Assembly: GCA_016209865.1 (NCBI GenBank)
Contig: JACQVL010000052.1
Coordinates: 1-13,884 of the forward strand
Direction: 5' to 3'
Length of the DNA stretch: 13,884 nt
Source of the DNA: Candidatus Latescibacterota bacterium
GTDB taxonomy: Bacteria; JAAXHH01; JACQVL01
In this document: piece by piece, positions 2,451 to 12,058 of the stretch
How the letters are laid out: each line of letters opens with the position of its first letter
Position numbering within the stretch: position 1 is the first letter of the stretch
Translations under genes and position numbers: made by a program
Notes under the pieces: generated by a model
Told to the model about the DNA's origin: nothing
What the model saw: the letters and a program-made list of their open reading frames with translations, nothing else
Databases searched by the model: none

Positions 2451-3024
2451 TTACAAAAGAGGTGAATCATGGCTCAGTTGACACGAGACGACGTGTTGCG
2501 TCGAGCGGAGAAGACGAAAGACCTGACCGGACTCGACCTCAGCGGGATTGATTTTGAGGGCGCGAGCCTGGTCCGGGTGAACTTCCGGTCGGCCATCCTC
2601 GATGGGGCGGTCTTCCGTGGAGCGGACCTGACGGAAGCCGAGTTCCGGGATGCCCGGCTCGTCAACGCTGACCTGCGCCGGGCGAAGCTCCGGCACGCGG
2701 TGTTGATCGGAGCGAACATCGAGGGGGCGAACTTCGAGGACGCGGATATGTTAGGCGCGTTCCTGAACGGCACACACGCGGCTGGGGCGAACTTCAAGCG
2801 CGCCGACCTCCGGGCGGCCCGGATCGGCGTCCCGACGTTCCAGCCGGCCGACCCGTTCGGGTCGGTGACGACGTTCGAGGGGGCGAACCTGGAGTGGTCG
2901 CTCTTCGGTGGAGTGGATTTGACGGGCGTGGATTTTCGCGGGGCGAACCTGTCCCATGCTCATCTGTATGAGGCGGAGATTCGCGGGGCGCTGCTCGACG
3001 GCGCCACTCTGACGGGGGTTCGAC

Positions 3025-5115
<2,091 letters not shown>

Positions 5116-9882: not shown

Positions 9883-10260
9883 ATGTCCGACACCAAATGT
9901 ATCCGCAAGTTCGTCGAACCGGCGAAGATTCGGGCGCTCCGTAACCTCGTGCGGACGGGCGCAGAACCGATCGAAACCCTTGCCGGGACGTTGCAGGCTA
10001 CCGGGAATGAGACCCGGCTGATGATCCTCTGGTTGCTCACGATCGAGTCTGAACTTTGTCCATGCGACCTGGCCGATGCCCTCGGTCTCTCGGTTCCGGC
10101 GGTCTCGCAGCAACTCCAGAAGTTGCGGGCCCAGCGACTCGTAACCCGGCGGCGTGACGGGGTGACGATCTACTACGCCCTCGCGGATACGCCGTTCACC
10201 GCCGTCTTACGGCAGCTTCTGGACACGCAGGTCCCGGCGTTGCTCACGGTTCAACGTTAG
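9883..10260 (+). CDS. ArsR/SmtB-family metal-sensing repressor
   Basis: A 125-residue winged-helix repressor of the ArsR/SmtB family. ESELCPCDLADALG contains Cys59 and Cys61 in the recognition-side helix, equivalent to the ELCVCD metal site of ArsR and CadC. Cys6 in the N-terminal arm may be an additional thiol ligand, as in CadC. The DNA-reading helix is SVPAVSQQLQKLR, followed by the beta-wing VTRRRDGVTIYYAL. Family logic: the apo-protein binds the operator and soft metals (As(III), Cd, Pb, Hg) release it. The ATG at 9883 has AAGGAGG just upstream; an in-frame ATG at 9856 lacks a ribosome site and falls in a candidate operator. It starts the operon with the MerTP-like gene 36 nt downstream. 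An ArsR-type regulator of mer genes is less usual than MerR. The ligand, probably Hg(II) or another thiophilic metal, is inferred from the neighbours. Confidence 0.92.
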   Translation: MSDTKCIRKFVEPAKIRALRNLVRTGAEPIETLAGTLQATGNETRLMILWLLTIESELCPCDLADALGLSVPAVSQQLQKLRAQRLVTRRRDGVTIYYALADTPFTAVLRQLLDTQVPALLTVQR

Positions 10261-10296: not shown

Positions 10297-11166
10297 ATGC
10301 AGAAGTCCACACTTCCCACCGTCGGCGCGGTCGTTTCCGCCGTGCTCGCGTCCCTGTGCTGTCTTGGGCCGATCGCACTCGCTGCGTTCGGGCTGGTCAG
10401 TCTGGGGGGCGTAGACCTTGTGACCACCGTGTTCAACCCATACCGACCGTACCTGATCGGCATCACCGTCGCTCTGCTCGGTGCCGGGTTCTTCGTGACC
10501 TACCGGAAGAAAGACGAGACCTGTCAAGAAGGCACCGCCTGCGCCGTTCCTCGTGTGCGCAAGGTGCAGAAAGTCGGGCTCTGGGTGATCGCCGGCATCA
10601 CCGGCCTGGTGCTGGCGGTGCCGTATCTTCCATGGGCGTCGAGTGCCTCGGCACCGGCCACCGGGCCGACCGAGGTTGCGTATTTCACGGTCAACGGAAT
10701 GGACTGCGCGGCGTGTGCATCGGGCATTGCGGCTTCACTGACGCGCTACGACGGCATTGCAGACGCCCAGATTGATTATGAAAAGGGGGAAGCAAAGGTC
10801 ACATACACGCCCGGGACGATCACACCCGAGCAGATCGCCCAGCGCATTACCGAGCAGGGCTTTCCTGCCACTCCCGTGAAGAAACCAATCAGCCAGACGA
10901 ATGCAAAGTCGGATACGTCGCTGGCGACGGTGACGCTGCGCGTCACTGGCATGACGTGAGGGGGGTGCGCTACCTCAGTGCGGGACGCACTGACCGCCGT
11001 GAAAGGGGTCAAGACTGCCGACGTCAGCCTCGAACAAAAGCGGGCCGTGGTGACGTACACATCGAAGAAGGTGAAGCCCGTCCAACTCATCAAGGCTGTC
11101 GAAGAAGCAGGGTTCAAAACTCAAGTGGAAGAACCCAGCAAGCGTCCATCAGAAAGGAGTATTTGA
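10297..11166 (+). CDS. merTP: MerT-MerP-MerP fusion mercuric transporter, probable selenoprotein (UGA at codon 221)
   Basis: Read through one in-frame TGA, this is a 289-residue inner-membrane metal importer. Residues 1-115 are MerT-like: Cys21-Cys22 in the first helix (LCCLGP), a second helix at about 52-68, the loop Cys pair Cys76/Cys82, and a third helix at about 93-113. A first HMA domain (about 126-195) has GMDCAAC (Cys137, Cys140). A second (about 208-280) has GMT-UGA-GGC, with the UGA at codon 221 where the first metal Cys belongs and Cys224 intact. After the UGA the frame continues as ordinary HMA sequence (GVKTADVSLEQKRAVVTYT) to a TGA at 11164-11166. In known Mer systems MerP thiols catch Hg(II) and pass it to MerT for entry. 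A Sec-Cys pair would bind Hg even more tightly. GAGGAGG precedes the ATG. If UGA is not recoded, the product ends at residue 220 with one intact HMA. Mutation or sequence error is the alternative. Confidence 0.85.
10957..10959 (+). other. Probable selenocysteine-inserting UGA codon
   Basis: TGA lies in frame between ACG (Thr220) and GGG-GGG-TGC (Gly-Gly-Cys). It replaces the first Cys of the HMA motif GMTCxxC. Sec for Cys at a metal- or redox-active Cys is the standard pattern in bacterial selenoproteins. Codon identity, intact downstream frame and the following hairpin agree. The selA/selB/selC/selD genes are not in this window. Confidence 0.75.
10976..10992 (+). promoter_or_regulatory. SECIS-like hairpin after the UGA
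   Basis: CAGTGCG (10976-10982) and CGCACTG (10986-10992) form a perfect 7-bp stem with a GGA loop. If the top C-G pair opens, the loop is GGGAC on a 6-bp stem. The apical loop begins 23 nt after the UGA. Bacterial SECIS elements lie in the coding region just downstream of UGA, with a small loop carrying a G in its first bases at about this distance. The element is inside the HMA2 coding frame (residues 227-232). A bulged U below the loop, as in E. coli fdhF, is not evident. Confidence 0.65.
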
Positions 11167-11684
11167 TGTCCAACTGTTGCACTGTGCCAACGACGACCCC
11201 AGAGTGTTGCGTCACAGTGAGTGGCGATGCGGACGCCAGTCCTGTCTGTCGAATCTGCGGGCAGAAGGCGAAGCCGGTGGATCGCATCACCCCGGAACAT
11301 CTGCTGAAACCCGAGGCCGCAGTCCAGCTCAGGGGCACCGTCTACCACTTCTGCGCCACCCCGACCTGTGACGTGGTGTATTTCTCCAACGCCACCGGGC
11401 AATACTTTCATAAGGGTGACGTGACAGTCCGGGTTGGGATGAAAGAGATCGAGGATCCTATCCCGATCTGCTACTGTTTTGACTACACCGTCCGACACAT
11501 TGAGGATGAGATACGGACGACGGGCGCGACCACGATCCCGGAGCGCATCCGAGCAGAGGTGAAGGCCGGGCATTGCCGATGCGAGGTGATGAATCCTCAG
11601 GGCACCTGCTGCCTGGGGAACGTCGCCCGGACGGTGAAGAAGGCGATGGCTGCGGTACAGATTCCGGTAGGAATAGGAGGGTGA
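11166..11684 (+). CDS. CopZ-like Zn/[2Fe-2S] Cys-rich protein, without HMA domain
   Basis: A 172-residue Cys-rich soluble protein resembling the N-terminal domain of Archaeoglobus-type CopZ, which carries a zinc ion and a [2Fe-2S] cluster. The first block has CRICG (Cys28, Cys31) and YHFCATPTCDVVYF (Cys63, Cys68). The second has ICYCF (Cys102, Cys104), CRCE (Cys137, Cys139) and NPQGTCCLG (Cys148, Cys149). The N-terminus adds two CC pairs (Cys4-Cys5, Cys14-Cys15). The C-terminal HMA domain found in full CopZ is absent; the fused transporter next door carries HMA domains instead. It probably receives or reduces metal inside the cell, but this is inference. Its ATG overlaps the last base of the transporter stop (TGATG) and AAAGGAG lies upstream. 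Translation of this gene may therefore depend on ribosomes that pass the UGA. Confidence 0.85.
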   Translation: MSNCCTVPTTTPECCVTVSGDADASPVCRICGQKAKPVDRITPEHLLKPEAAVQLRGTVYHFCATPTCDVVYFSNATGQYFHKGDVTVRVGMKEIEDPIPICYCFDYTVRHIEDEIRTTGATTIPERIRAEVKAGHCRCEVMNPQGTCCLGNVARTVKKAMAAVQIPVGIGG

Positions 11685-11689
11685 TCATT

Positions 11690-12058
11690 ATGGCCAAACT
11701 CGGTGCACATCTCGACAAGTTTGGGGCAGTGGGATCGGCATTCGCCGCGCTCTGCTGTCTGGGAACTCCGGCGTTGCTTTCATTGCTGTCTGCCATCGGC
11801 CTGGGCTTCCTGATCAACGACGCAATCTAGTTAACGCTCATGTACGTGTTCCTGGCCCTCAGCGTGATCGGGCTGTCCCGGTCGTGTGCGCGGCATCGGA
11901 AGCCCTACCCGCTCGTGTTGGGTGTCCTGAGCGCGATTGGCTTGCTGACCGGAATCCTGTTCCTCTCACAGACGCCGTTTGCGTACGTCAGTCTTGCCGG
12001 TCTCATCGGCGCGTCCGTGTGGGATCTCATGACCAAGCGATCCTGTGCGGTCGGGTAG
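11690..12058 (+). pseudogene. MerC-like membrane protein gene interrupted by an in-frame TAG
   Basis: The first 46 codons (from ATG 11690, with AGGAGG 9 nt upstream) encode a MerC/MerF-like helix pair with vicinal Cys22-Cys23 in AALCCLGTPALL, followed by SAIGLGFLIND. TAG stands at codon 47 (11828-11830). The same frame stays open for 75 more codons and encodes CARHRKPYPL and two further hydrophobic helices, ending with TAG at 12056-12058. Together the pieces give about 122 residues and four helices, the size and shape of MerC-type inner-membrane mercury transporters. The ATG at 11840 has no ribosome site, so separate translation of the second piece is doubtful. A single T-to-A or G-to-A change (from TTG or TGG) would explain the stop. 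Sequence error, amber suppression or a real short MerF-like product are the alternatives. Confidence 0.7.

Follow-up and report, generated by a model that had tools for sequence, protein, structure and literature searches.

The DNA analysed here, hereafter the window, is a stretch of 13,884 nucleotides from a metagenome-assembled genome (MAG) of a Candidatus Latescibacterota bacterium, and its forward strand carries a likely operon of metal-related genes. This comprises an ArsR/SmtB-type metalloregulator (9883–10260; NF033788, 85 bits, above the cut-off), likely the regulator of the operon, a MerTP-like importer gene (10297–11166), a putative [2Fe-2S] CopZ-type metallochaperone (11166–11684; NF047645, 125.5 bits, cut-off 100) and a MerC-like transporter gene (11690–12058; PF03203, 71.8 bits on read-through). 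The MerC-like frame, which starts about 730 bases past the UGA codon described below, contains an in-frame TAG at 11828–11830; apart from this codon it shares 50% identity with MerC of strain NT-25, and the TAG falls at a Leu column of that homologue. This TAG may be a nonsense mutation, a sequence error or another form of recoding, and because it breaks the frame, an error in the operon or its decay is a possibility.

The MerTP-like frame runs from an ATG at 10297 through codons ending at 11163 to a TGA stop at 11164–11166, the last base of which is also the first base of the following gene's start codon (TGATG). Translated with TGA as U, it begins with a MerT transmembrane part (10309–10629; PF02411, residues 5–111, 67 bits) that has the usual Cys pair, C21 and C22, as well as C76 and C82. 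Two HMA domains follow: HMA1 (10684–10863; PF00403, 45.4 bits) has an ordinary GMDCAAC site and is free of stops, and HMA2 (10933–11118) has a GMT-U-GGC site with one TGA inside, at 10957–10959, which corresponds to residue 221 (U221). Between this UGA and the terminal TGA lie 68 sense codons. The NCBIfam MerTP profile NF033556 (MerTP_fusion) scored 148.6 bits, below its curated cut-off of 180, so that the predicted protein is MerTP-like in architecture and not an equivalog by this profile. The earlier note on this DNA had described a TGA at the first Cys of a second HMA motif, behind a domain with GMDCAAC and ahead of 68 sense codons of HMA sequence leading to a stop that overlaps the next gene, and each of these observations was confirmed.

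Read through the TGA, HMA2 outscores HMA1 in PF00403 (60 vs 45.4 bits), and with C put for U the whole protein scored 124.6 bits with NF041115, above the curated cut-off of 95, the best stretch being HMA2. Homology is present on both sides of the UGA, which is aligned with the Cys of homologues. In alignments and PDB sequence matches U221 pairs with the first Cys of the CxxC in copper-ATPase HMA domains, and HMA2 matches MerP (1afi, 1osd) over residues 210–278 with no difference in length. With tblastn there were 181 alignments in which both ligand columns are Cys; at the UGA column the window and the Sec homologues have UGA. The motif G-M-x-UGA-x-x-C occurs once in the window against 0.01 expected from shuffles. 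Were the TGA a true stop, the product would be a MerT plus single-HMA protein, with HMA2, if made at all, arising separately by re-initiation. An in-frame GTG start at 10978 would permit this, and locus L139 has just one HMA behind its MerT part; however, re-initiation at 10978 would leave HMA2 without its CxxC and its first beta strand, and the frame through the UGA scores as one intact HMA domain, which makes a true stop very improbable.

An altered genetic code that reads TGA as sense throughout would likewise keep the frame open, but the MerTP-like gene and the next gene both terminate in TGA, the window is tiled by long open reading frames under table 11, and the genome has a dedicated tRNA-Sec with a UCA anticodon. 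The endings of the neighbouring genes led us to reject a general change of code, which we regard as the least credible of the explanations weighed here. The genome bin, of 3.75 Mb with 83% completeness and 1.7% contamination, holds all of selA, selB, selC and selD: selB and the tRNA-Sec adjoin each other on contig C14, selA lies on C80 and selD on C19. A second match above the tRNA-Sec cut-off, also on C19, was found to be a tRNA-Ser. The selD gene has its own in-frame TGA, within GAGUACK, the known Sec site of SelD, at which SelD is often a selenoprotein. The window contig is consistent with the rest of the bin in GC content (0.62 vs 0.61–0.65) and in tetranucleotide profile (r 0.98 against the other contigs).

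Downstream of the UGA, on the forward strand, is a SECIS-like hairpin, UCAGUGCG-GGA-CGCACUGA (10975–10993), with its GGA loop 23 nt after the UGA, a stem of 8 bp and an energy of −10.8 kcal/mol. The published model of the bacterial SECIS (bSECIS) has a loop of 3–9 nt with G at the first two positions, a stem of 4–16 bp, a distance of 16–37 nt from the UGA and an energy of at most −7.5 kcal/mol (PMC13188914), and the hairpin agrees with every one of these constraints. The TGA of selD is also followed by a hairpin that fits the model (−14.8 kcal/mol, loop GGU). An equally stable hairpin follows 2.3% of 2825 background TGAs in the sequence of this genome, and a model-fitting hairpin is by itself only suggestive of a Sec insertion signal. 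A search of the window against Rfam gave no match, and in an unconstrained fold of the 54 nt from the UGA the energy was ordinary (z −1.05), so the case for a SECIS rests on the constrained hairpin together with its conservation.

Conservation was assessed among HMA genes with V..AL residues. Because these residues partly fix the bases of the hairpin, the 26 Sec genes of this kind, the window included, were compared with 46 Cys-type homologues carrying identical V..AL residues. At least six of the seven pairs were kept in 25 of the 26 Sec genes and in 3 of the 46 Cys genes, and all seven pairs in 17 and none, respectively. The Fisher p of 5e-15 for pair retention was calculated with relatedness left in, and overstates independence since most of the Sec genes are closely related to one another. 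The window comes from a different phylum, and its match to the hairpin register is an independent one. Furthermore, two stem pairs are altered on both sides, giving a covariation score of 0.205 against at most 0.07 in slid-register controls. The register, with its loop 23 nt after the UGA, is shared neither by the UxxU genes of G088 and G097, two genomes from a different phylum, nor by a UGLU gene of Bacterium HR08. The Sec-HMA gene of G109 (L186, 1540–1581) has a TAG inside the hairpin stem, where the codon in most relatives is one for Gln or Arg.

A recent nonsense mutation or an assembly error, turning TGC or TGT into TGA and leaving a pseudogene or a gene truncated after HMA1, would also place a TGA at this site. 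The UGA is one step from a Cys codon, the same operon has the TAG in its MerC-like gene, and the genome is an incomplete draft MAG. Since 14 other codons of the MerTP-like gene, 7 of them Cys, are also one step from TGA, the position of the UGA alone is weak evidence. A mutation or error would nevertheless have to fall on precisely the column that carries Sec in HMA domains of the NF041115 type, in a genome with the full Sec machinery, and would need a chance bSECIS hairpin, of the stability found at few background TGAs, in the register of other Sec-HMA genes, and we consider it unlikely. The frame stays open across the UGA, Cys or Sec is paired with it in homologues, the bin holds the Sec machinery, and the hairpin covaries; given this computed support, the UGA at 10957–10959 very probably encodes Sec in the second HMA domain of a MerTP-like importer. 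The earlier note had proposed looking for the four sel genes, for Cys or UGA at this column in homologues and for a bacterial SECIS, and all three checks came out in favour of Sec: the genes are present, the homologues run past the column with Cys (HR08) or UGA (the phylum of genome G054, and G088 and G097), and the hairpin that fits the model is common to other UxxC-HMA genes.

The nearest full-length relative found is the MerTP of Bacterium HR08 (L052), with 38% identity in the best segment. As in the window, a MerT part and two HMA domains are followed by a [2Fe-2S] CopZ-like gene, which is also present in L061; unlike the window, HR08 has Cys in both HMA sites, with GMTCAGC at the UGA column. 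Another HMA gene of HR08, which stands on its own and has a product that looks secreted, lies about 600 bases upstream of this Cys-type MerTP and has a UGLU metal site (L052, ~3830–4440). When the phylum of G054 was searched with NF041115, many HMA genes with one TGA came up. The U-x-x-C site of the window recurs in L155, L186 and L216–L242, most of which have the hairpin in the same stem register, with its loop 23 nt from the UGA. Those from the phylum of G054 (L155, L216–L242) have a GMTU(G/A/S)xC site, about 50% identity to HMA2 and, in most, the hairpin 23 nt after the UGA, but are short separate proteins with a lipoprotein-like N-terminus and without a MerT part. At L155 (1372–2212) two such HMA genes are neighbours, with one UGA each (GMTUASC, GMTUSDC). 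The same order yielded no close orthologue, its best matches being other HMA proteins, and viral contigs searched with the protein held no relatives.

The MerT-HMA genes of G088 and G097 have UxxU at the UGA site of the window and a further UGA upstream. This third UGA of the two genes (L171 and L170, respectively), in ALPxUG, lies between the MerT part and the following MSRR... segment; alternatively, it may terminate a MerT gene that is separate. A MerT-like open reading frame (L138, minus strand, 2989–3327), some 820 bases upstream of the UxxU gene of G088, has two adjacent UGA codons (PNIUUILP) at the Cys pair of the first MerT helix, and is possibly a double-Sec MerT.

The earlier note had left it uncertain whether the family was already catalogued as a selenoprotein, and it is. 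NF041115 (metal-binding (seleno)protein, UxxU_metal_bind), above whose cut-off the protein scored, likewise has Sec in the HMA CxxC, although the site in the window is UxxC rather than UxxU and its domain comes after a MerT part and a Cys-type HMA in one chain. NF045683 (MerT/CopZ fusion-like heavy metal transport selenoprotein) by its name also joins a MerT part to a CopZ-like HMA, whereas the window has two HMA domains and scored 101.8 bits against a cut-off of 375. A selenoprotein list in a 2026 review contains PF02411 with C/SxxU, NF041115 with UxxU and an E1-E2 ATPase with UxxC (PMC13188914). MerP and a putative mercuric transport protein, which are the same kinds of protein as in the window, were tabulated as selenoproteins in the 2008 Global Ocean Sampling survey (PMC2398784), the table of which gives no motif and does not describe the fusion architecture. 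In view of these entries, the gene of the window belongs to a selenoprotein class already catalogued and adds to it a member with its own arrangement of domains.

If Sec is inserted, SelB and Sec-tRNA-Sec would recognise the hairpin just downstream of the UGA, and translation would continue as far as the stop at 11164, which overlaps the start codon of the [2Fe-2S] CopZ-like metallochaperone gene. The C-terminal HMA2 would then bind metal through a Sec-Cys pair (U221, C224), and metal may be exchanged between the HMA domains and the Cys pair of MerT. As a matter of general chemistry, selenolate has the advantage over thiolate in metal binding, and the selenolate of HMA2 would be expected to capture the metal more tightly. 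By family membership, the protein probably has a role in metal uptake or trafficking, and its ligand may be Hg(II) or another soft metal. The earlier note had proposed a mercury or soft-metal domain with a Sec-Cys pair; the pair is supported, and mercury is plausible as a substrate, although no MerA above the cut-off was found in the 83% complete bin (best match 343 bits, cut-off 454) and the regulator is of the ArsR type. That best match is dihydrolipoyl-dehydrogenase-like, judging from its CLNWGC site.

HMA2 shares about 52% identity with the UxxC lipoprotein-like domains of another phylum, which have the same hairpin register, 48% with HMA2 of HR08 and 36% with its own HMA1. Its greater closeness to the lipoprotein-like domains than to HMA1 raises the tentative idea of a portable cassette, made up of the Sec-HMA domain with the hairpin inside it, that was joined to the end of an ordinary importer of the MerT-HMA type to give a two-site Cys-Cys/Sec-Cys metal relay of graded affinity; we hold this to be possible rather than probable. 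A tree of HMA domains (172 rows, 66 columns) neither supports nor rejects a single origin of the Sec domains and leaves the origin of HMA2 unsettled; the nearest row to HMA2 by path is L186, a Sec row, in a topology that is likewise unsettled.

This gene is a further, well-supported example of a Sec that serves as metal ligand and not as redox catalyst, here in an importer of heavy metals, and an annotation that ends at the UGA would miss its second metal site. The Cys-type HMA domain within the same chain is an internal control for the Sec-type HMA2 and, given a hairpin register that is common across phyla, the UxxC-HMA genes would make a good test set for the evolution of the SECIS.
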